Positions 26 through 28,786 of a stretch of 33,851 nucleotides of DNA are shown here, one piece after another. Within the stretch, counting starts at the first letter, position 1. Each line of letters opens with the position of its first letter. Source of the stretch: Bacillota bacterium (lineage in GTDB: Bacteria; Bacillota; Limnochordia; DTU087). Both the position numbers and the translations under genes were made by a program. The notes below the pieces were generated by a model that had not been told where the DNA came from, ran no database searches, and was given only the letters and a program-made list of their open reading frames with translations. Location: contig JAAZLW010000228.1 of NCBI GenBank assembly GCA_012799135.1, forward strand, positions 1-33,851, written 5' to 3'.

Positions 26-71
26 AAAGCCACAAAGACGTTATGGGTGGAACATAACTTTTTGTGGCTTT
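26..71. other. Two-part inverted repeat (hairpin)
   Basis: AAAGCCACAAA (26-36) pairs with TTTGTGGCTTT (61-71), and an inner GTTATG (40-45) pairs with CATAAC (53-58), leaving a 7-nt loop. No long T-run follows on either strand, so a simple intrinsic terminator is not well supported. It could be the end of a transcript from outside the window or part of a small repeat element. Confidence 0.5.
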
Positions 72-208
72 ATGCTTACGAGGTTAGCTGTCGGGTTAGG
101 AGTAGCTGCCCCTACTAAGTAAGATTAGTTTCACCCCAAAAATGGTTCCCCCGTTTCTAACGAATTCAGCATCAAATTTTTTAACCTGTATGACCTGCGA
201 TATTATTA

Positions 209-427: not shown

Positions 428-504
428 TGGTGGGTTTGAGTGGACTCGAACCACCGACCCCTGCGATGTCAACGCAGTACTCTAACCAGCTGAGCTACAA
501 ACCC
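428..504 (-). tRNA. tRNA-Val (GAC)
   Basis: A full cloverleaf reads on the minus strand. The acceptor arm GGGTTTG pairs with CAAACCC, the anticodon stem CTGCG/CGCAG encloses the loop TTGACAT with anticodon GAC, and the T arm carries TTCGAGT. The 3' CCA is encoded at 428-430. It is the last gene of the seven-tRNA cluster and the second valine isoacceptor in it. Confidence 0.93.
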
Positions 505-510
505 ACATTA

Positions 511-600
511 TGGTGCCGAAGACCGGAATCGAACCGGTACGGGGTTATAGGCCCCGCGGGATTTTAAGTCCCGTGCGTCTGCCTGTTCCGCCACTTCGGC
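511..600 (-). tRNA. tRNA-Leu (TAA)
   Basis: A class II tRNA with a long variable arm. The acceptor GCCGAAG pairs with CTTCGGC, the anticodon loop CTTAAAA gives TAA, and CCA is encoded at 511-513. It lies 6 nt from the neighbouring tRNA-Val(GAC). Confidence 0.95.
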
Positions 601-605
601 TTAGT

Positions 606-680
<75 letters not shown>

Positions 681-683
681 ATA

Positions 684-758
684 TGGAGCGGAAGACGGGA
701 CTTGAACCCGCGGCCCCCACCTTGGCAAGGTGGTGTTCTACCACTGAACTACTTCCGC
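684..758 (-). tRNA. tRNA-Gly (GCC)
   Basis: The acceptor GCGGAAG pairs with CTTCCGC, the anticodon stem CACCT/AGGTG encloses TTGCCAA with anticodon GCC, and CCA is encoded. Confidence 0.95.
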
Positions 759-766
759 ATGCCACC

Positions 767-842
767 TGGTGCCGAGAGCCGGAATCGAACCAGCGACACG
801 GGGATTTTCAGTCCCCTGCTCTACCGACTGAGCTATCTCGGC
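767..842 (-). tRNA. tRNA-Phe (GAA)
   Basis: The acceptor GCCGAGA pairs with TCTCGGC, the anticodon stem GGGGA/TCCCC encloses the loop CTGAAAA with anticodon GAA, and CCA is encoded at 767-769. Confidence 0.95.
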
Positions 843-847
843 TTAAA

Positions 848-925
848 TGGCGGAACCGACGGGACTTGAACCCGCGATCTCCGGCTTGACAGGCCGGTGT
901 GTTAAACCGACTACACCACGGTTCC
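848..925 (-). tRNA. tRNA-Asp (GTC)
   Basis: The acceptor GGAACCG pairs with CGGTTCC, the anticodon loop CTGTCAA gives GTC, and the discriminator G plus CCA are encoded. The D arm GTGTAG is typical of tRNA-Asp. Confidence 0.95.
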
Positions 926-928
926 GCA

Positions 929-1004
929 TGGTGGGCGAAACAGGACTTGAACCTGTGACCCCCTGCTTGTAAGGCAGGTGCTCTCCCAGCTGAGCTATTC
1001 GCCC
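929..1004 (-). tRNA. tRNA-Val (TAC)
   Basis: The acceptor GGGCGAA begins at 1004, the anticodon stem CTGCC/GGCAG-type arm encloses CTTACAA with anticodon TAC, and CCA is encoded. It is the promoter-proximal gene of the cluster. The order Val-Asp-Phe-Gly-Cys-Leu resembles tRNA clusters of other Bacillota. Confidence 0.95.
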
Positions 1005-18397: not shown

Positions 18398-19324
18398 TCA
18401 ATCATATCGGATACGAGGATCAAACAAGGCATATGACATGTCGACAACCAGGTTGGCAAGGATAAAGAGACCTGCAAGGAACAATACCTCACCCCGGATA
18501 ATAGGAAAGTCACGATAGGTTAGAGCCTCCACAAACAACCGACCAACACCCGGCCATTGGAACACTGACTCAATCAAAACTACACCACTAAGCAGGCTGG
18601 CAGTCTCGACTCCGATGATAGTCACTACAGGAATCATAGCATTTTTCAGTGCGTGCTTAAGCACTACGGTCTTGGCCCCTAGACCTTTCGCCCAGGCAGT
18701 TCTGATATAATCCTGTCGAATCACCTCCAGCATACTGGAACGAGTCATACGCGCGATTAAAGCTGCTGGCCGGATTCCCAAAGTCACCGCCGGCAACACT
18801 AGGTAGATTAGCTCCCCGTCACCTGTGCCGGTACCGGGGATCCACCGTAAGGTCACAGCAAAGAGATAAAGCAGCAACAAACCAACCCAAAAGGATGGTG
18901 CTGAAATCCCCAGCAAGGCCACAAACATACTCGCATAATCAAGAAAGGAATACTGCTTTACCGCAGATATGATGCCAAAGGTCATGCCCAACACGATGGC
19001 AATAACCATGCCCGCTAGTCCTAATTTGACTGTTGCTGGAAACCGAGACCAGATCGCTTCATTTACATTCATGTTGTTGCGGTAGGATCTTCCCAAGTTA
19101 AAGGTAATAGCAGACTTAAAGAAATTCCACATCTGTACAATTATTGGATCATCTAACCCCATCTCGTGGCGGATCTTAGCAATAGTCTCAGGCTTGCCTG
19201 CTTGACCAGCCATGATCCGAGCCGGATCCCCGGGAACTATGGTTGTCAAGACAAAGACTACCACAATAACACCAATAAAAACTGGGATGGCGCCGATTAG
19301 ACGACGAAAAACATAGCGTCCCAT
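18398..19324 (-). CDS. Oligopeptide/dipeptide ABC transporter permease (OppB/DppB)
   Basis: 308 residues with six predicted membrane segments. It begins MGRYVFRRLIGAIPVFIGV and carries the coupling motif YIRTAWAKGLGAKTVVLKHALKN near 190-213 and the typical C-terminal DPRIRYD. ATG 19324 follows GGGGAGGGAG. It pairs with the OppC-like protein to form the channel and lies 39 nt upstream of it. Confidence 0.92.
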   Translation of the reverse strand: MGRYVFRRLIGAIPVFIGVIVVVFVLTTIVPGDPARIMAGQAGKPETIAKIRHEMGLDDPIIVQMWNFFKSAITFNLGRSYRNNMNVNEAIWSRFPATVKLGLAGMVIAIVLGMTFGIISAVKQYSFLDYASMFVALLGISAPSFWVGLLLLYLFAVTLRWIPGTGTGDGELIYLVLPAVTLGIRPAALIARMTRSSMLEVIRQDYIRTAWAKGLGAKTVVLKHALKNAMIPVVTIIGVETASLLSGVVLIESVFQWPGVGRLFVEALTYRDFPIIRGEVLFLAGLFILANLVVDMSYALFDPRIRYD

Positions 19325-19372
19325 ATTCTCCCTCCCCATCGACCTGCAACCACATCACTAAACCAGATATAA

Positions 19373-19412
19373 GGCGACTTGGCCCAAGGTCTGCCCTAAA
19401 AGCCAAGTCGCC
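19373..19412 (-). other. Hairpin between solute-binding protein and permease genes
   Basis: GGCGACTTGGC (19373-19383) pairs perfectly with GCCAAGTCGCC (19402-19412). No T-run follows on the minus strand. Such structures often protect the upstream mRNA or reduce transcription into the permease genes, raising the binding-protein-to-channel ratio. Confidence 0.65.
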
Positions 19413-19451
19413 CGCTCTGCTCATCGCCTCTACTTCAGTCTGCTTGCCAGC

Positions 19452-21089
19452 CTACCGATCCAACCACACCTTGGTGAACTTATTGGTATACTGGCCAAAT
19501 GCAGGCAACTCGTAACCCCGGACGAAATCTCTAATCAGAGTATGGTCCGTATAGTGATAGATGAACAGCCATGGAGCTTCGTCAACCACGATCTGCTCAG
19601 CTAACTGATAGAGATTGCGCCGCTTCTCCGGGTCACCCTCGAGTCTGGCACCCTGTGTTAGGGCATCAAACTTCGCACTGTTGAAACGAGAGTAGTTGCC
19701 CTGTGGTCCTATGTTATCAGAATGCAGCAGCACATACAAGAAGTTGTCCGGGTCAGGATAGTCAACTACCCAGCCCATGCGGAAGAACGGTACCTCACCT
19801 CGCTCAGTGGTATCCAGATGGACTCCCCAGTCAACGTTATGCAGGTTCACCTTAATCCCAATCTGAGCGAACTGGGCCTGGAGAGCTTCAGCGAGCCGTT
19901 TATGACCAGCACTTGTATTGTACTGTAAGGTGACTTCAAGCCCGGATCCATAGCCGGCTTCCTCCAGCAGCGCCTTGGCTTTCTTTGGGTTATACTCATA
20001 GCCTTCTAGTTCTTCGCTATAGGCGAACATGCCCGGAGGTAGTACACCCTTGGCAGGGCTGGCACGACCGTCCAGCACTAGGTCAATCAAAGCCTCACGA
20101 TTGATCGCATAGTTGAAGGCCTGGCGTACGCGCTTATCAGTAAAGGGCTCTAGCTCTACGTTAAAGCCATAGTAGTAGGTACCCATCTGGGGACGCTCAT
20201 AGAATACGCCCACTCGGCCACTCTTGGCTTCTTCATAGTAAGGATTATCGACATAGGTCTGATAGATATTGCCCAGCTTATACTCCGTATACTCAATGGT
20301 CTGGTCCACGATGATCCGGAACTCGAGCCCATCCAAGTAAGGCAGCTGATTACCGAATTCATCCTTCATCCAGTAGTTCTCATTACGGGAAAGAACGACT
20401 TTCTCATCCTGCAACCATTCCTCAAATTTGAAAGGTCCGGTGCCTACAGGATGGAAGTTGAAATCGGCAGTACCCCACTTCTCAATATCTTCTTTGGGAA
20501 GCACCACAAAGGTATTGTAGGTCAACACCTGGATAAACGGTGCAAAAGGATACGTTGTGTCGATTTCCAGTGTGTAATCATCGAGAGCAGTGACACCAAC
20601 CAGAGCATCAGCCTGACCTGCCTGATACTCCTCGAAGCCCTTAACCATATCGACGAAATACGCCCTCGGCGAATTGGTTTCCGGGCTGCAGATATAGTTG
20701 AAAGTCCAGACCCAGTCATGGGCAGTAACCTCTCGACCACCATTGGCAGTGGGCTTTCCACCCTCAGTGGTGGCATGGAAGTGTACACCCTTGCGTAGTT
20801 TGAAAATGAATCTGGTTCCGCCATCCTCTACGTCCCAGGATTCGGCCAATAAGGGAATGACTTCCCCATCGGGATCTAAGCCTACCAGTGTCTCAAAAAG
20901 CTGGTAGCCTACCTCAGCCGAGGTCGTATCTGTGGCAAATACTGGATCAATATGGGGTGGGTTGGAACCCAATGCATCCTTCCAGATGCCACCATATTTG
21001 GGCTGTTCGGCAGCGGCGATACCGCTCACTAGGCACAATGCTAAGCTAACTACTAGTACAACCAACGTATGTTTCCGCAACGATCTCAC
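19452..21089 (-). CDS. Family 5 extracellular solute-binding protein (peptide-type)
   Basis: 545 residues. A Sec signal peptide (about 1-27, with a hydrophobic run VLVVSLALCLVSG) ends in an A-A-A signal-peptidase-I type site before EQPKYGG. The mature part follows the DppA/OppA fold, for example LAESWDVEDGG, FKLRKGVHFH, GTGPFKFEEW and the C-terminal region with YPDPDNFLYVLLHSDNIG. The only Cys in the signal region is in LALC, with Leu at -1, which is not a proper lipobox. How the protein is held at the cell is therefore unclear. It delivers peptides, or other ligands of this broad family, to the permease. It is the first transporter gene after the regulator. Confidence 0.92.
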   Translation of the reverse strand: MRSLRKHTLVVLVVSLALCLVSGIAAAEQPKYGGIWKDALGSNPPHIDPVFATDTTSAEVGYQLFETLVGLDPDGEVIPLLAESWDVEDGGTRFIFKLRKGVHFHATTEGGKPTANGGREVTAHDWVWTFNYICSPETNSPRAYFVDMVKGFEEYQAGQADALVGVTALDDYTLEIDTTYPFAPFIQVLTYNTFVVLPKEDIEKWGTADFNFHPVGTGPFKFEEWLQDEKVVLSRNENYWMKDEFGNQLPYLDGLEFRIIVDQTIEYTEYKLGNIYQTYVDNPYYEEAKSGRVGVFYERPQMGTYYYGFNVELEPFTDKRVRQAFNYAINREALIDLVLDGRASPAKGVLPPGMFAYSEELEGYEYNPKKAKALLEEAGYGSGLEVTLQYNTSAGHKRLAEALQAQFAQIGIKVNLHNVDWGVHLDTTERGEVPFFRMGWVVDYPDPDNFLYVLLHSDNIGPQGNYSRFNSAKFDALTQGARLEGDPEKRRNLYQLAEQIVVDEAPWLFIYHYTDHTLIRDFVRGYELPAFGQYTNKFTKVWLDR

Positions 21090-21245
21090 CCTCCTAATTA
21101 TCCTTACAACTCATAACTTCTCAACAGACTTGGCCCCAGTTGAAAAGACCACCATGTCATTCTCTAAGCCATCCCTTCCCCCTTTCTAGCTTCCCTTGTA
21201 CCTGCCTTCTATGAGCTCGCAAGCACCTTAAAAAGGATGTGACCC

Positions 21246-21259
21246 CAGACTTACGTCTG
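21246..21259. promoter_or_regulatory. Candidate operator CAGAC-N4-GTCTG
   Basis: A 5-bp inverted repeat with a 4-nt centre lies in the 198-nt gap between the UTRA regulator and the solute-binding protein gene. The place is right for an operator of that regulator, but I found no second copy and no strong promoter boxes beside it. Confidence 0.3.
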
Positions 21260-21287
21260 TTTGCCCACAAGCTACAACTAACTAATC

Positions 21288-22004
21288 CTAGCCCGTCTTG
21301 TCCACGAATTTCAGTTCATGCTCGCCGTCTCCCACAAGCACGAACCGCACTCCATAGGCGGGAAACACCTTAAACTCCAGTCCTACAGGTTGCCCCTGGG
21401 TGATGATCAGATTGCCTGATCGCATCACCGGTTCTGCCGGGGGTACTCCTAGACTAGCAGCGATGTAGGGATCGGCCGGTTCTACCTCAAGACTCCTCTC
21501 CCAAGACTCCATGGCATCAGGTTCCGCGAGGCCCAACAGCTCCCGTAAGGGTATATCACTCCGCAGAAGCTCCTCAGACAAGCTAAGATCGCCAGTGGTC
21601 ACCACTTGACTCGCAAAAACCGGTTGTCCATTTACCTTGTGCACTCGACTCACCATGAGTAATGGCTCATCACTCGCTACCTTCAGAAGATTCGCCCATT
21701 CAGGCCGATGGACCTTATGGATACGAATCTCATTGACGCTTAAACACTCACCGGCAGTGTCAAAGGTCGATGCTAAGCCGGGGCCGTCGCCTTTGAGGCC
21801 AACATCTATACCCAAGCGTCTTTCCATTCGCCGAGCATAGTTCCGCCTCAACTGCATCAGAGAAATCTTAGCTTCTGAAAGAATCGTTCGGACATAGCGA
21901 GGAGTAGTCTCCACCCTCGCCGCGATTTCCTCGACTTTGAGAAAAGGATCCTGGCGGGCTAGATTCAGGATCTGCTCTTTTTTTGTTTCGGGTAATCCTG
22001 GCAT
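21288..22004 (-). CDS. UTRA-domain transcriptional regulator with atypical HTH
   Basis: 238 residues. Residues about 75-230 look like a UTRA ligand-binding domain (MVSRVHKVNGQPVFAS, then GNLIITQGQPVGLEFKVFPA), the effector domain of HutC-type GntR regulators. The N-terminal part (about 5-60) is a helix-turn-helix (KKEQILNLARQDPFLKVEEI, AARVETTPRYVRTILSEAKI) without the usual GntR sequence. It probably controls the transporter operon that begins 198 nt downstream on the same strand, sensing a small molecule; the ligand is unknown. Confidence 0.78.
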   Translation of the reverse strand: MPGLPETKKEQILNLARQDPFLKVEEIAARVETTPRYVRTILSEAKISLMQLRRNYARRMERRLGIDVGLKGDGPGLASTFDTAGECLSVNEIRIHKVHRPEWANLLKVASDEPLLMVSRVHKVNGQPVFASQVVTTGDLSLSEELLRSDIPLRELLGLAEPDAMESWERSLEVEPADPYIAASLGVPPAEPVMRSGNLIITQGQPVGLEFKVFPAYGVRFVLVGDGEHELKFVDKTG

Positions 22005-22289: not shown

Positions 22290-22967
22290 CTACCTGCTAC
22301 TGACGCTTCCCAAAAGATGGCGATATCGCTCCAGTATCTGCTTTCCCCGGTGCCACCATGATTCTATATGACGCCCAATGTTTGGTAAGAAGAGTAGTTC
22401 CGTTACTGGGGGAGGCCATACCCCTCGATAGAGACGGACATACCATGTGTACACTCCTAGTACCCGCTGTACATATAGGCGAGTCTCCAGGAATGGTATA
22501 TCATTTACCCCATCCAGGCGACCGTTCCAACGCTGCTCAGCCAACCATCGTGCCACATTGCCCCGACCGCCATTATAGGCGGCCAATGCCACTACCAGAT
22601 TGCCGCCAAACTCCTCCAGTAGCATCATCAAGTACCATGTACCTAGACGGATATTGGTATCAGGGTCTATCAGATCAAGGCCGGCGATTTCTAAACCCAG
22701 CCGCCCTGCCACCCATTCTGCCGTCTCTGGCATCAGCTGCATTAGCCCCGTGGCGCCTTTTAGGGAACAAGCATCTGGTTGGAAATTGCTCTCTACTCTA
22801 ATCAGAGCTGCTACCAGATATGGATCTAGGGGAGTCGCTTGAGTATGGGCAGAGATCTCTCCTACATAGCGGATCGGGTAAAACCATCGCAAAACAACTT
22901 GCCAGTTAAGTAGAAATATAACTATCAGCATGATTAGTATTGAAAGCAAATTCCATCTCAAACGCAA
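22290..22967 (-). CDS. Slt-type lytic transglycosylase, membrane anchored
   Basis: 225 residues. One N-terminal membrane segment (about 7-29) anchors the enzyme outside the cytoplasm. The catalytic Glu59 is in ALIRVESNFQ, followed by GATGLMQLMPETA (71-83) and AAYNGGRGNV near 130, the three SLT signatures. It cuts the MurNAc-GlcNAc bond of peptidoglycan to form anhydro ends. TTG at 22967 is the first possible start after in-frame stops, with AGGGGG about 12 nt upstream; ATG at 22931 would remove part of the anchor. It is the last gene of the polA cluster, directly after coaE-mgsA. Confidence 0.9.
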   Translation of the reverse strand: MRLRWNLLSILIMLIVIFLLNWQVVLRWFYPIRYVGEISAHTQATPLDPYLVAALIRVESNFQPDACSLKGATGLMQLMPETAEWVAGRLGLEIAGLDLIDPDTNIRLGTWYLMMLLEEFGGNLVVALAAYNGGRGNVARWLAEQRWNGRLDGVNDIPFLETRLYVQRVLGVYTWYVRLYRGVWPPPVTELLFLPNIGRHIESWWHRGKQILERYRHLLGSVSSR

Positions 22968-23004: not shown

Positions 23005-24072
23005 TTAGTCGGCCTCTTGCTGTTCTTCCAGCTGATCGAAGGCTAAAAGTAACACGGCCGCTGTGGCCTCATTGGTAGCAAGAGGTACATTATGCACATC
23101 ACATACCCGCAATAGTGCTGTAATATCCGGTTCGTGAGGTTGAGCTGTCAGCGGGTCGCGGAGAAAAATCACCATATCTATTTGATCTTGTGCTACTAAG
23201 GCACCGATCTGTTGGTCACCTCCATAGGGACCAGACTGTAAGCGCCTTATGTCCAGACCTACCTCTTCCTGTAGTATCTTCCCAGTGGTGCCCGTGGCCA
23301 CCAGCTTGAAGTTGCTCAGTGTGGATTGAAATCGGCGAACCAGCTCAATCATGGCAGGCTTCTTCTGATCATGGGCAATCAGCGCCACCCTCCTTTTCCG
23401 ATGAACTTCCCCGCCGTCTCCACTCATTTCGGATATGGATAGATCGTGGTCAACACCGCATCGCCTGGTCACTGCAACACTCCCCAACAGCTCATCCAGT
23501 ACTGCATCTACTTGCATGCGTGTGTCCTCTAAGGAGCCGGAGTTATCCACTACATAGTCAGCTCGTTGGACCTTAAGAGCCAGGGGCAACTGAGCATCAA
23601 TCCGGCTCTGGGCCTCCCTAAGGGTGAGCTTGTCCCTTTTTTGCAGACGAGACAGCTGAATCTCTGGTCTAGTATAGACCACAACCACAGCATCCGTCCG
23701 CTTGTCCAATCCGGTCTCAAAAAGCAGAGGGACATCGATCACCAATAACGGTTCTCCCCGCTCACTCGCCATTCGAACACCCTGCTCTATTAGAGCCATA
23801 ACCTTGGGGTGTACAATCTGGTTTAGCCTTTCCCGCGCAGTCTCATCACTGAAGATGGTCCGGGCCAGCCGAGCGCGATCGAGATTGCCATCTGGGTTGA
23901 AGTAGTCTTCTCCAAAGGACTCTCGTATTTCCTGCCAACCCGCACTACCTGGAGTCACCACATCCCGGGCGAATTGATCTGCATCCAATACCGTAAGACC
24001 TCGCTCCTCAATCAACCTAGCCACAGTCGTCTTCCCACTGGCGATCCCCCCGGTTAACCCGATGATGAGCAA
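23005..24072 (-). CDS. Fusion: dephospho-CoA kinase and methylglyoxal synthase
   Basis: 355 residues in one open frame. Residues 1 to about 198 are CoaE: Walker [40 protein letters not shown] and the lid QKRDKLT. This half phosphorylates dephospho-CoA in the last step of CoA synthesis. Residues about 226-345 are methylglyoxal synthase: ALIAHD (His234), [20 protein letters not shown] (Asp286), FLRDPL (Asp306), PHEPD (His313, Asp316) and PLATNEATA. This half turns dihydroxyacetone phosphate into methylglyoxal. All expected catalytic residues are present in both halves. A polar linker (about 199-225) joins them; internal Met216 has no ribosome-binding site. Start TTG 24072 follows GGAGG. The place after ytaF is the usual coaE position. 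Confidence 0.93.
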
Positions 24073-24078
24073 ATCATC

Positions 24079-24747
24079 TCACCTCCCAGCCGTAATCCAC
24101 CACCACAAACCGATGGCGATCAATACTCCCCCTGGCAAACGGCCTAGCAAATTCCTGGATAATCTAGCCGCTCTAGCCCAGCGACATCCGATCAAAAGAC
24201 CCGTGGATAGAGCCAGGAAACTAACTAAGACTATGCTAATAGACGTGGTTAGCAAAGGGAATCCAGCCATGGCTGCGGCCAGACCTACGCCTGTAGCATC
24301 TAAGGCGAGTGCAATCCCAAGCAAAACGGCTTCCCTGCCGCTAATCATACCAGAGCAGTCCAAATCAGCTATCAAGGGTTCTTTCAGTACTTGGATGACA
24401 AGGCCAAAGGGCTGGAGTCGCACCTTTAGGATCATGTCCTCTCCCTTTGATTCCTGCGCATCTCCTGAAAAAACTGCACCGGTTTCCCGTCGCTTCTGGA
24501 GTATGCTCCACAGGCCCAAACCTACCAAGAGCACTGCACCTAGCCTAGGCATGAAACCCCCACCAATGTAGTGACCAACCGCGGCCCCTGCTTGCATCGC
24601 TAGGAAAACGGCAACTCCTGAAACCAAGCTAGCTATCCCCACCGACGTCAGTGGTACTCTCACCCGTCGAAGTCCATAGGCTATGCCCGCAACCAGGCCA
24701 TCCAGACTGATCCCGATCGCCAGCAGTAAAACAGCTGATAGATTCAC
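24079..24747 (-). CDS. ytaF: YtaF-like sporulation membrane protein (MntP-related)
   Basis: 222 residues with about six membrane segments. LLAIGISLDGLVAGIAYGLR at the N-terminus and the repeated LGIALALDATGVGLAAA segment in the second half match the YtaF group, with the soluble DLDCSGMISGREA loop between them that is typical of it. The Asp residues within the membrane resemble those of the MntP manganese exporter. GTG 24747 puts the start just before the first membrane segment, as in B. subtilis; a start at 24801 would add 18 polar residues. It lies between mutM and coaE, the B. subtilis order. Confidence 0.87.
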   Translation of the reverse strand: MNLSAVLLLAIGISLDGLVAGIAYGLRRVRVPLTSVGIASLVSGVAVFLAMQAGAAVGHYIGGGFMPRLGAVLLVGLGLWSILQKRRETGAVFSGDAQESKGEDMILKVRLQPFGLVIQVLKEPLIADLDCSGMISGREAVLLGIALALDATGVGLAAAMAGFPLLTTSISIVLVSFLALSTGLLIGCRWARAARLSRNLLGRLPGGVLIAIGLWWWITAGR

Positions 24748-24832
24748 CTTCCGCCCCCCCAAAGGACTCTTGTGATCTATCTCTATCCTATGGAGAAGCA
24801 TTGACCCTAGTTACTCCACTGACAGAGTTTGC

Positions 24833-25657
24833 TCATCTTTGACAAAGGGGACAGTAAAAAGAGCTGCGTCCAGCGAGTTTCACTCTACCAATGGGTTCAC
24901 CACACATCCTACAGGGCTCTCCTTCTCTACCATAGACTCGGAGCAACTCCTGAAAACCTCCTTTGCGCCCATCACCATCCACATAGTCTCGGAAAGTCGT
25001 ACCCCTATGTGCGATACCTTCCCCAATGACCCGTTGTATACTCTGGTGCAATCGGTTAATCTCTGTGCTGCTAAGTGAACCGGCGGGCCGACCGGGAAAA
25101 ATCCCAGCTCTATATAGGCTTTCATCTGCATAGATGTTACCTAGACCAGCTACGCGGCGTTGATCCAAAAGAACCGACTTGATCGCCGCGGTGCGACCCT
25201 GCACTTGCTCCGTCAGGTATATGCACGTGAAGCCCTCCTCCAATGGCTCCATCCCCAGGGTAGCTAAGCCTTTTATCGGCCCAAAGCCCGGCTCTTGAAG
25301 AAGATATACCGTGGCGAATTTCCGCTGATCAATCAGCCGTAGCTCCTCTTCACCAGACATATAGATCTGGAGTGAGACGTGTTTTTCCATGGGATAGTCC
25401 CTGGGCAACACTACCAATCGCCCCGTCATGCGTAAGTGGATGACTACTCTATTGTGGGAATCCAGATAGGCAATAAGGTATTTGCCTCTCCGATCCAGTT
25501 GCACAAATTCTCTATCTCGCAGCGCTTGATTGAACTCCAGTTCAGTGCAATTGCGCAATACCTTTTGGTAAGATACTCTAACACCCTGAATTCGCCGGTG
25601 TAGGATTCTTTCCTGTAGTGTTCTGCGAATGGTCTCTACTTCCGGCAGTTCCGGCAC
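24833..25657 (-). CDS. mutM: Formamidopyrimidine-DNA glycosylase (Fpg)
   Basis: 274 residues. It removes 8-oxoguanine and other oxidised bases and cuts the abasic site. The catalytic N-terminal PELPEVE requires Pro as residue 2, which fixes the start at GTG 25657 rather than GTG 25666. The catalytic loop lysine is in DRRGKYL (about residue 56), the helix-two-turn-helix motif is near GLGNIYADE, and the C-terminal zinc finger is CRMCGE...CPLCQ. It lies just downstream of polA, so repair synthesis and base excision are co-transcribed. Confidence 0.95.
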   Translation of the reverse strand: MPELPEVETIRRTLQERILHRRIQGVRVSYQKVLRNCTELEFNQALRDREFVQLDRRGKYLIAYLDSHNRVVIHLRMTGRLVVLPRDYPMEKHVSLQIYMSGEEELRLIDQRKFATVYLLQEPGFGPIKGLATLGMEPLEEGFTCIYLTEQVQGRTAAIKSVLLDQRRVAGLGNIYADESLYRAGIFPGRPAGSLSSTEINRLHQSIQRVIGEGIAHRGTTFRDYVDGDGRKGGFQELLRVYGREGEPCRMCGEPIGRVKLAGRSSFYCPLCQR

Positions 25658-25684
25658 CTTCTCCACCTCACTAGTCCCCTGAAG

Positions 25685-28438
25685 CTAACCCTGGGGGCAT
25701 ACCGGTACCACATCCCGCCAATTTGGGCCAGCTTTGACCTCTACTACCAAAGGAACGTCGAGGGTAACAATCCCCTCCATTGTTTCCTTCACCAATCGAG
25801 CAGTTGGGATCATATCTTCTGTGTGAACTCCGAATACCAATTCATCGTGAACCTGTAGAAGCATTTCCGCCCTTAACCCGCACGCGGCAACCTCCCGCTC
25901 CACGACTACCATGGCCATCTTAATAATGTCGGCCGCGGTACCCTGAATCGGAGCATTCATCGCGGCCCGCTCCGCGAAATTCCGTTGTGCCCAGCGTCTG
26001 CTTTGGATATCCGGCAGATATCGGCGCCGGTTAAAAAGAGTGGTTATATAGCCCTTCTCTTTGGTTGCTTCGATGGTCTGATCAAGATATGCCTTCACAC
26101 CCGAGTACTTCTCAAAATACTTGTCTATATAGGCTTGGGCTTGTTGGACGCTAAGACCGGTACCCTTGGCCAGGCCAAAGCTGCTAATCCCATAGACTAT
26201 CCCAAAATTGATGGCTTTAGCCGCATTGCGCAGGGTGGGAGTAACTTGCTCCATTTCTATGCCGAAGACTTCTGCAGCGGTACGGGCATGGATATCAGCC
26301 CCTGCCCTGAAAGCTTCTATCCAAGCAAGGTCCTGGGACATGTGGGCCAAGACTCGTAGCTCGATCTGAGAATAGTCAGCCGCTAGTAGCACATAATCCG
26401 GGCGCCCGGCCACAAACGCCCGCCGAATCCGCCTACCTTCCTCGGTCCTTACCGGGATATTCTGCAGATTGGGGTTTACACTAGACAAACGCCCGGTCGC
26501 GGTCGCTGTCTGATGAAAACTCGTGTGTATGCGATGAGTCTGCGGATGTACCAATAGCTCAAGACTATCCAGATACGTTGACTTTAGTTTTACCAACTGG
26601 CGGTATTCCAGGACTAGCTGAGCTATCTGATGCTCCTCAGCCAGCTGTTCCAGGACTTCGGCATTGGTAGATGGGCCAGTTTTAGTTTCTTTTAAGATCG
26701 GTAGCCCAAGCCTCTCAAACAAGACCTCTGCCAGCTGTTTGGGAGAGTTAATATTAAACTCCACACCAGCCAGGCAATGAATATCAAAAGTCAGATCATT
26801 GATTCGTTCTTCGAATTCCCGAGAGATGCTCCTGAGTTCCTTAACATCAACGGCCACTCCCCGCCGCTCCATAGCCGCCAGAACTTCGGCCAGAGGTAGT
26901 TCCACTTCATAGTACAATCGCTCGACGGCTCGCTCCTTTAGTTCTTCCCTCAATCTGTCTTCAAGGAGGGGCATCTTTGCCAACCGCATCCTGCTAAGCC
27001 CCGCCAGTTTCTGCGGCTCCAGCTCCCGTAGTGGTATGGCTTTGGTACCTTTCCCGGTTAGTTCTTCCAGACCCGGCTGATAGACATCCAACACCTGCAG
27101 GAGAACATCCTCGAGCCCCCTAATGTTCTGGCCTGGATTCAAAAGATAGGCCGCTATGGCGATGTCAAAAAGCGGCGCCTCTGGAGAAAGATTCTGGTTA
27201 GCCAAGGCATGCCTGAGAGACTTTGTATCAAAGCAAACTTTGGTCAAGCTAGTATCCCCAAGTACTTCGTCCAGTGCGTCAAGTCCGTCGATTCCTGCTT
27301 CGTTCTTATTCTCGTTTGAGGGCCCGTAGACAAACCCACCCCGCTGGCCATCGCTTATCCCTAGACCTACCAAGGTAGCATCGATACTATCCGGGTTATC
27401 GATAAAAGGATCCAGATAAATGACCTTTCGCTCTGCCTTTTTTAGTTCTTTAACGAAAGCCTCAATCTGTGCTCGGCAGCAAAACAGCTCAAATTCAGGC
27501 ACCCCTGCTGCTTCCTCTACCTCTTTCTCTCCTTTGGTAACCACTAGCTGAACCTCACCTATAGATAGGCGAGACAATAGATTCCTAAACTCCAACCGTG
27601 AGAACAACTGACAAAGCTTATCCTCATCCCACCTATCGCGCGCATAGGGATTCAGATCACAACTTATAGGCACATCACAGTCTATGGTGGCAAGCTGACG
27701 GCTAAGCCGAGCCTGATCTGCATATCGCTTTAGATTCTCTCTTTGCTTTCCCCGCAATTCATCGATATTAGCCAAGACACCCTCCAGACTGCCGAATTCC
27801 CGCAGTAGCTTCACCCCTGTCTTGGGCCCAATACCGGGTACTCCAGGGATGTTGTCCGAGGAGTCGCCCATCAATCCCTTCAGATCGGCTACCAGATGAG
27901 GAGGTACACCGTGTCTTGCTTGCACATGTTCAGGATCATAAGTCTCCAAATCGCTAATGCCCCGTCGGGTAATCAGTGCGGTAACCTGATCGTCAACCAA
28001 TTGTAAACAGTCACGGTCACCGGTAACTATCAGCACATGGCGCCCTAAAGCAGCGTGGTGACAAGCCAGGGTACCGATGATATCATCAGCTTCATAGCCC
28101 TCTAGTTCCAGTATAGGGATGGAGAATCCCCTGACCGTTTCTTTCACCAAAGAGACCTGTGGCACTAGTTCATCTGGCATGTGGGGGCGATGACTCTTAT
28201 AGTCCTCGAACTGTTCATGACGGAATGTGGGTTCAGATAGGTCAAAAGCCACGGCAACATAATCTGGCTGCTCATCCTCCAGTAAGCGTACAAGCATATT
28301 GGTGAACCCCAATACCGCATTGGTATACTCTCCCTGACTAGTTGTGAGAGTCGGAATTGCGTAAAAAGCACGGTGGAGGAGACTGTTTCCATCCACCAGT
28401 ATCACTTTGTCTTGGGAGCTGCCCATACCGGCCTGCAT
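25685..28438 (-). CDS. polA: DNA polymerase I
   Basis: 917 residues. The N-terminal 5'-3' exonuclease (about 1-290) has ILVDGNSLLHRAFYA, EGYEADDIIGTLA and GDSSDNIPGVPGIGPKTG. The middle 3'-5' exonuclease-like domain is degenerate: the DxE of motif I reads D-P-F, and the second motif also lacks its usual Asp. The polymerase domain has motif A DYSQIELRVLAHMSQD, motif B RNAAKAINFGIVYG and motif C QVHDELVF. Proofreading is thus probably absent, as in Bacillus. I chose ATG 28438 after GAGGTGG; ATG 28426 and the start at 28492 are alternatives. Confidence 0.95.
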   Translation of the reverse strand: MQAGMGSSQDKVILVDGNSLLHRAFYAIPTLTTSQGEYTNAVLGFTNMLVRLLEDEQPDYVAVAFDLSEPTFRHEQFEDYKSHRPHMPDELVPQVSLVKETVRGFSIPILELEGYEADDIIGTLACHHAALGRHVLIVTGDRDCLQLVDDQVTALITRRGISDLETYDPEHVQARHGVPPHLVADLKGLMGDSSDNIPGVPGIGPKTGVKLLREFGSLEGVLANIDELRGKQRENLKRYADQARLSRQLATIDCDVPISCDLNPYARDRWDEDKLCQLFSRLEFRNLLSRLSIGEVQLVVTKGEKEVEEAAGVPEFELFCCRAQIEAFVKELKKAERKVIYLDPFIDNPDSIDATLVGLGISDGQRGGFVYGPSNENKNEAGIDGLDALDEVLGDTSLTKVCFDTKSLRHALANQNLSPEAPLFDIAIAAYLLNPGQNIRGLEDVLLQVLDVYQPGLEELTGKGTKAIPLRELEPQKLAGLSRMRLAKMPLLEDRLREELKERAVERLYYEVELPLAEVLAAMERRGVAVDVKELRSISREFEERINDLTFDIHCLAGVEFNINSPKQLAEVLFERLGLPILKETKTGPSTNAEVLEQLAEEHQIAQLVLEYRQLVKLKSTYLDSLELLVHPQTHRIHTSFHQTATATGRLSSVNPNLQNIPVRTEEGRRIRRAFVAGRPDYVLLAADYSQIELRVLAHMSQDLAWIEAFRAGADIHARTAAEVFGIEMEQVTPTLRNAAKAINFGIVYGISSFGLAKGTGLSVQQAQAYIDKYFEKYSGVKAYLDQTIEATKEKGYITTLFNRRRYLPDIQSRRWAQRNFAERAAMNAPIQGTAADIIKMAMVVVEREVAACGLRAEMLLQVHDELVFGVHTEDMIPTARLVKETMEGIVTLDVPLVVEVKAGPNWRDVVPVCPQG

Positions 28439-28786
28439 CACTACCACCTCAGGTCTATAGGATTTATGAAAATCGGGCCGGAAAAACTCCATACCAACAG
28501 GAGTATTCCACCCTAGTTAACTGCTGAGTTCCCAGCAAGTATTCCATACAGGAGTTCGATTTACCTTTTTAGAAGGCCCCCACTGATCACCAGACGCCCG
28601 GCAGATAATGGTGACCCTCTTCATTACTTACCACTCTCGTCTAAACTTACATATCAATAGAGGTAGTATTGTGGATCATGTTATGTTAGCATTATGGCAG
28701 TAAGAGGGGACTTAAGTCCTATGCTTTCTATTCTCCTGTCGATTACTTTGAGGTCATGACATACAGGAAGGGAGAGGTTTATTCCA
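28439..28786. other. Divergent intergenic region between polA and the SLH gene
   Basis: No gene is seen. It holds a short TGCTG/CAGCA repeat at about 28520-28540 and the palindrome at 28708-28719. TGGAATACT-like words occur twice near the polA end. I found no promoter pair strong enough to name. Confidence 0.5.
28708..28719. promoter_or_regulatory. Perfect 12-bp palindrome GGACTTAAGTCC
   Basis: The site lies 68 nt upstream of the SLH-protein start codon. With its flanks it reads GGGGACTTAAGTCCT, which resembles the actinobacterial DosR box core (GGGACTWWAGTCCC). The binding protein in this organism is unknown. Confidence 0.4.

Follow-up and report, generated by a model that had tools for sequence, protein, structure and literature searches.

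A predicted dephospho-CoA kinase and methylglyoxal synthase fusion that recurs in Bacillota and probably stems from overlapping neighbor genes

Known relatives and comparison with the fused protein

The enzymes dephospho-CoA kinase (CoaE) and methylglyoxal synthase (MgsA) usually come from separate genes, as an initial annotation of the DNA analyzed here had stated and as our searches confirm. MgsA is a hexamer that is inhibited by phosphate. Domains of both kinds also occur within larger proteins. In animal CoA synthase, the partner of the CoaE-type domain stands N-terminal to it and catalyzes the step just before it in the same pathway, and in carbamoyl phosphate synthetase the MGS-like domain is a regulatory domain. 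Mycobacterial CoaE carries an additional C-terminal UPF0157 domain (PMC2765170; PDB 6n39; PRK03333), to which that work assigns a role in folding. CoaE fusions with other partners are therefore known, and the genes discussed here are present in public genomes; what appears to be new is a recurrent fusion of CoaE with MGS, from a conserved pair of overlapping genes. A search confined largely to the open-access literature found no description of such a fusion.

Here, we describe this fusion starting from a 33,851-nucleotide stretch of Bacillota DNA (the window). The N-terminal half of the encoded protein shares the whole domain, the P-loop, Asp32, Arg142 and the fold with stand-alone CoaE (TIGR00152, PF01121; structures 1n3b from E. 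coli and 4i1v from Burkholderia), but the window protein bears a second enzyme at its C-terminus. The C-terminal half likewise shares the whole domain, the checked active-site residues and the fold with stand-alone MgsA (TIGR00160; 6f2c from B. subtilis, 1wo8 from Thermus, 1b93 from E. coli); MgsA is normally a free small subunit, whereas the N-terminus of the MGS half is fixed to another enzyme. The mycobacterial fusion resembles the window protein in combining CoaE with an extra C-terminal domain. Its UPF0157 domain is not a second enzyme of the MGS kind, however, whereas residues 226–344 of the window protein are MgsA. Against PRK03333, the window protein reaches 179.9 bits, below the cut-off of 215, and matches only positions 1–192 of 395. 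The animal bifunctional CoA synthase (PDB 2f6r) also places a CoaE-type domain in a bifunctional protein (Z 24.9), but the partner in the window protein is C-terminal and comes from a different pathway. Finally, the MGS-like domain of carbamoyl phosphate synthetase (PDB 1bxr, 1a9x) has the same fold on a large enzyme (Z about 13.5), while the window half has the full MgsA catalytic set and scores as MgsA. Sequence searches of the PDB give 26 distinct matches, and the best stretch of each covers one half only. Both halves are thus ordinary members of known families; it is the architecture that is unusual, and it is recurrent.

A single frame with two enzyme halves

On the minus strand, positions 24072 to 23005 form a single open frame of 355 codons (Table 1); plus-strand frame 1 over the same positions is interrupted by stops. 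The initial annotation had reported one frame that joins a complete CoaE to a complete methylglyoxal synthase, standing in the usual place of coaE after polA, mutM and ytaF. Both observations were right, with the two halves scoring above their curated family cut-offs and an SLT-domain lytic transglycosylase gene (slt) following downstream, but the strand had been left out. Searches in Pfam and NCBIfam find the combined CoaE and MGS architecture in the window protein. In the window's genome, the whole protein and the MGS profile match one place each, without any second copy of either half at E 0.001. Promoter-like sites around the fused gene are at chance level (8 found versus 8.4 expected), and no Rfam family matches inside it.

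Table 1. Coordinates of the fused gene, its parts and its neighbors in the window
Feature	Position	Strand	Remarks
Fused coaE-mgsA gene	23005..24072	minus	355 codons and a stop codon; inferred TTG start
CoaE (dephospho-CoA kinase) half	23488..24072	minus	residues 1–195; Walker A GGIASGKT is residues 8–15
Linker	23395..23487	minus	about residues 196–226
Methylglyoxal synthase half	23038..23394	minus	about residues 227–345
GGGAGGTGA, ribosome-binding-site-like stretch 5′ of the fused gene	24079..24087	minus	overlaps the ytaF stop codon; inferred from sequence
ytaF (sporulation membrane protein YtaF), upstream neighbor	24079..24801	minus	TIGR02840, 167.2 bits (cut-off 149.6)
mutM (formamidopyrimidine-DNA glycosylase), upstream neighbor	24833..25666	minus	Pfam; conserved gene order
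polA (DNA polymerase I), upstream neighbor	25685..28492	minus	named from sequence and conserved gene order
SLT-domain lytic transglycosylase, downstream neighbor	22290..22967	minus	Pfam SLT, E 2.1e-30; conserved gene order

The CoaE half is matched by Pfam CoaE over residues 2–182 (E 8e-57; 192.3 bits, cut-off 27) and by TIGR00152 over residues 3–189 (178.2 bits, cut-off 65.55), the latter spanning model positions 1–187 of 188. The P-loop Lys14, the catalytic Asp32 and the lid Arg142 are all present. Mutational work on mycobacterial CoaE (PMC3019153) concerns Thr7, Gly8, Lys14, Asp32, Leu114 and Arg140; their counterparts in the window protein are Thr7, Gly8, Lys14, Asp32, Leu116 and Arg142, where the equivalence of the last two goes through the motif and an alignment with E. 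coli CoaE.

The MGS half is matched by Pfam MGS-like over residues 241–333 (E 5e-18) and by TIGR00160, the methylglyoxal synthase family, over residues 226–344 (180.8 bits, curated cut-off 146.9). Its alignment with E. coli MgsA is free of gaps (48% over residues 226–338), so that residue n corresponds to E. coli residue n-215. This numbering agrees with the earlier assignment of His234, Asp286, Asp306, His313 and Asp316, which correspond to E. coli residues 19, 71, 91, 98 and 101. PMC7843640 names H19, D71, H98, K23, T45–G49, S65 and G66–P67 as MgsA active-site residues and mentions hexameric models; the same set is found in the window protein as His234, Asp286, His313, Lys238, Thr260–Gly264, Ser280 and Gly281–Pro282. 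None of these active-site residues, in either half, varies among the 14 fused proteins that make up our alignment (A1).

A predicted structural model of the single chain, built from 20 sequences, has a mean pLDDT of 82.5 and consists of two confident domains, with pLDDT below 50 in the linker at residues 201–224. Residues 1–203 superimpose on the CoA kinase 4i1v (Z 26.1, rmsd 1.7 over 200 residues) and residues 226–351 on the methylglyoxal synthase 1wo8 (Z 22.6, rmsd 1.4 over 124 residues). The pTM of the model is 0.55, a value from which the relative placement of the halves is not reliable.

Linker and halves evolve differently. Identity between family members in the linker ranges from 0.10 to 0.74, and its length shifts by whole residues (41–46 in the aligned stretch of the seven fused family genes). 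In six pairs among G007–G010 (Nei-Gojobori; dS is often saturated in more distant pairs), dN/dS is about 0.02–0.08 for the MGS half, about 0.08–0.14 for the CoaE half and 0.37–0.86 for the linker. Between G008 and G009, the MGS half is better conserved than the CoaE half (dN 0.007 versus 0.044). Purifying selection acts on both halves, whereas the linker drifts but stays open.

Distribution, ancestral gene order and repeated origin

We searched for the full-length protein in 60 relatives, in 12 genomes of the order and in 72 genomes of the class. The window's family comprises 11 genomes, of which seven carry the fusion without a stop, the other six at 62–72% identity to the window protein. The same seven are matched by the MGS profile; the remaining four have CoaE alone, without an MGS match. 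A stop or frameshift near codons 199–226 in independent assemblies would have spoken against the fusion; the seven fused family genes contain none. A named record (L032, a Bacillota MAG) and G003 were counted once, as their contigs are both 96,425 bases long. L032 is also the sole locus covering both halves among the eight confirmed in a scan of named genomes, a scan that requires exact short peptides and missed the type found in genus g214, and so is not a census.

To look beyond the family, a profile of the fused proteins was run against 398 genomes drawn evenly from the phylum. Eight have uninterrupted full-length matches (E 1e-152 or better); three of them belong to the window's family and two to genus g214, the others being G267, G124 and G224. 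Two further genomes, G337 and G023, have full-length profile matches with stops in between, and the next match after the full-length set is at 2.8e-75. The class of G267 (59 genomes) adds a fused gene in G394 as well as further members of g214, a genus in which 10 of 12 genomes are fused, two of them in single-contig assemblies of 2.3 and 2.6 Mb. One g214 genome, G385, has coaE at the locus without mgsA. In family f23, two of five genomes are fused. We have read 21 fused genes altogether, seven from the window's family and 14 from others (7 + 2 + 1 + 1 + 10). Among the genomes read, the clades that carry the combined architecture are the window's family, f23 and the class of G267 (g214, G267 and G394). 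Among 97 matching plasmid records, none covers at least 80% of the query. In viral contigs, the MGS half matches two loci and A1 matches 38, all 38 only from residue 199 onward. Three viral contigs of 344,746, 363,317 and 354,809 bases (L215, L219 and L225) carry methylglyoxal synthase genes and are possibly large phages.

The initial annotation had suggested that mgsA was newly added to coaE. The gene order in relatives contradicts this and leads us to reject mgsA as a new insertion: coaE and mgsA stand side by side as separate genes, in the same order and on the same strand, in 42 of the 72 class genomes. Seven more are fused, 20 have coaE without an adjoining mgsA (two of these with mgsA elsewhere) and three have no match at E 1e-20. 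The unfused adjacency is also present in the other families with fusions. More broadly, the order polA-mutM-(ytaF)-coaE-(mgsA)-slt is widely conserved in the class, with slt at 66 and mutM at 61 of 69 coaE loci, some of which are cut by contig ends. The neighbor ytaF is apparently decaying in the genus of G009, G008 and G010 (L051, L052 and L053): in G008, only its last 80 residues are matched, and in G009 and G010 nothing between mutM and coaE matches ytaF.

Of 56 unfused pairs across all families read, 49 have the stop codon of coaE within mgsA; individual overlap lengths are rough because the nearest possible codon was taken as the mgsA start. Relative to coaE, mgsA is in frame +1 in 41 pairs and in frame +2 in 10, and the two genes of the other five pairs share one frame. 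The 56 pairs remain from 61 after G384, G049, G039, G038 and G040 were dropped (truncated genes, Ns, contig edges or broken matches). Four of the same-frame pairs (G069, G070, G337 and G389; L041, L042, L120 and L141) are separated by a stop and at most one codon; readthrough of this stop would yield a fused protein, and these pairs look like steps towards fusion. In the fifth, G023, about 110 bases lie between coaE and mgsA. Since relatives already have the two genes side by side, mostly overlapping, it is old neighbors that have fused.

Two of the pairs that were set aside have peculiarities of their own. In G049 (L043), a run of unknown bases separates coaE from the matched part of mgsA. 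In G384 (L152), the remaining g214 genome, the CoaE frame continues through 36 matched MGS residues into slt, as if mgsA were mostly deleted; the assembly is poor (83% complete, 7% contamination), and the arrangement is perhaps an artefact.

Fusion has happened more than once. A single origin of all 21 fused genes is rejected (AU p 4.7e-50 in the CoaE tree and 4.2e-8 in the MGS tree), as is a grouping of all 12 fused genes from the class of G267 in one clade (p 0.005, CoaE tree), and one origin for the seven fusions of the window's family is compatible with the CoaE tree (p 0.81); all these p values are rough, coming from quick trees, in one of whose CoaE tests the free search fell 26.7 log units short of a better tree. 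Rows entered the trees if they exceeded 120 letters for CoaE (102 rows) or 90 letters for MGS (88 rows), and G384 carried the label 'adjacent' in them despite its frame running from CoaE through the MGS remnant into slt. On a safe reading, the alignments and trees point to at least three origins: in the window's family, in f23 and in the class of G267.

The MGS half can apparently be lost again. G004, which has CoaE alone, is nested in the fused clade with a support of 98 in a PolA and MutM tree (FastTree, 83 rows), and loss of its MGS half after fusion is likely because of this position. No MGS remnant was detected 3′ of the G004 gene, where the best match in the 191-base gap has E 1.2. With 4 of 11 family genomes lacking MGS and G004 within the fused clade, the MGS half is dispensable and may be lost.

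A probable bifunctional protein and its alternatives

The gene very probably encodes a bifunctional protein, with a working CoaE and a working MGS, that arose by fusion of overlapping, coupled neighbors and has lost the internal mgsA start. The N-terminal half is predicted to convert ATP and dephospho-CoA to CoA, and the C-terminal half to convert dihydroxyacetone phosphate to methylglyoxal and phosphate; we infer both activities from family scores, active-site residues and fold. The linker between the halves, some 30 residues long, would be flexible, and the two active sites are most likely independent. Fusion would fix equal production of both halves. Co-assembly is probable, since the MGS half is expected to be hexameric and would carry CoaE units along. 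As for the origin, the coaE/mgsA overlap of these long-coupled genes would have been resolved into one frame, by whatever exact mutation, and the internal start of mgsA would have been lost afterwards.

How far this last step has gone seems to differ between lineages, and it bears on whether free MGS is also made from the fused frame, by internal translation initiation or by cleavage of the linker. Some fused genes retain what look like suitable starts. G267, G394, G124 and G224 keep an in-frame ATG 5–7 codons before the LIAHD motif, after GGAGG or GGAGGT at a spacing of 4–9. In g214, two genes have an ATG four codons before LIAHD, and seven of the eight lacking this ATG have a TTG five codons ahead of the motif, where a GGAG or AAGGAG stretch stands at a spacing of 11. 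A disordered linker, as predicted for the window protein, could moreover be cut. In the window's family, however, none of the seven genes has an ATG with a ribosome-binding-site-like stretch within 12 codons of LIAHD, and only weaker candidates are found. Such GTGs occur in G000 and G005; in the window's gene, one lies 30 codons before LIAHD (GGAG at a spacing of 7) and one two codons before it (weak AAGG match). G005 further has an ATG 26 codons before LIAHD (TAAGGAG at a spacing of 10), and G007 a TTG 27 codons before it (with TAAG). All these Shine-Dalgarno-like stretches are raw matches, some of which may be due to chance. For the window's gene, we consider an additional free MGS unlikely. 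Because the linker is longer and none of its genes keeps an ATG with such a stretch, the window's family looks like the one furthest along, with the internal start gone and an obligate two-enzyme protein as the result.

A second question is whether the fusion has been selected for functional coupling, where one activity senses or feeds the other or CoA supply is tied to methylglyoxal production. The initial annotation had named joint control of CoA completion and the methylglyoxal bypass as a possible reason for the fusion. The conserved adjacency and the repeated fusion fit such a role. BshC (bacillithiol synthase) is missing from all 72 genomes of the class, in a search whose control was positive in 3 of 14 named genomes, and this leaves room for CoA as a main small thiol and as a possible methylglyoxal trap. 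On the other hand, the linker is unconserved, relatives have lost MGS yet kept CoaE, and overlapping neighbors tend to fuse without any benefit. We know of no shared substrate of CoaE and MGS, and regard selected coupling as improbable, somewhat more so than a free MGS product. In a more speculative form, coaE and mgsA would be a conserved functional pair in deep Bacillota without BshC-type bacillithiol synthesis, in which making CoA is tied to making methylglyoxal, with CoA acting as a thiol trap or as the acceptor for propionyl-CoA via a route from methylglyoxal to 1,2-propanediol, and in which the pair has hardened several times independently into one two-enzyme particle; to this we would likewise assign only a small chance.

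Two further readings fare far worse. A one-base assembly or sequencing error joining two overlapping genes might be suspected, as a single indel would mimic a fusion where unfused relatives overlap in another frame, and as the window's genome lies in 362 contigs (95.93% complete, 6.7% contamination). Such an artefact is rejected, and we consider it highly improbable, given fusions in seven family genomes, with linkers that vary in sequence and by whole residues and exceed the length expected from the overlap of unfused pairs, and in 14 genomes of other families, among them the ten of g214 with their two single contigs. That one half is a dead passenger would fit the absence of MGS from 4 of 11 family genomes, but can be practically dismissed in view of the invariant active sites, the stronger conservation of the MGS half and the single copy of each half in the window's genome.

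A bifunctional protein has consequences for work on such organisms, whose MGS proteomics and genetics may concern a protein that is simultaneously a CoA kinase; a deletion of 'mgsA' where the fusion is present would disrupt an essential gene. PMC6544827 reports that every enzyme of the methylglyoxal bypass, including MGS, was detected in the Halanaerobium congolense proteome and rose in abundance under pressure, a further hint at a possible link between the two activities; the words 'dephospho' and 'fusion' are absent from its main text. If g214 is Halanaerobium, the MGS of that pressure study is probably the fused protein. More generally, the joining of these two enzymes recurs across separate lineages, each time with the same order of the halves and out of one overlapping gene pair. 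This offers a clean case in which to ask whether the fusion of translationally coupled neighbors is mostly neutral or a sign of a link between CoA supply and methylglyoxal.

Other features of the window lie away from the fused gene. A c-di-AMP riboswitch of the ydaO/yuaA type (89.4 bits; 59–181, minus strand) and a cluster of seven tRNA genes (428–1004, minus strand) are located at its start. At 18398–22004 (minus strand), an open reading frame with a Pfam match to UTRA, a regulator ligand-binding domain, precedes open reading frames of a putative peptide-type ABC transporter, which, judged by eye from the sequence, resemble a substrate-binding protein and a permease.
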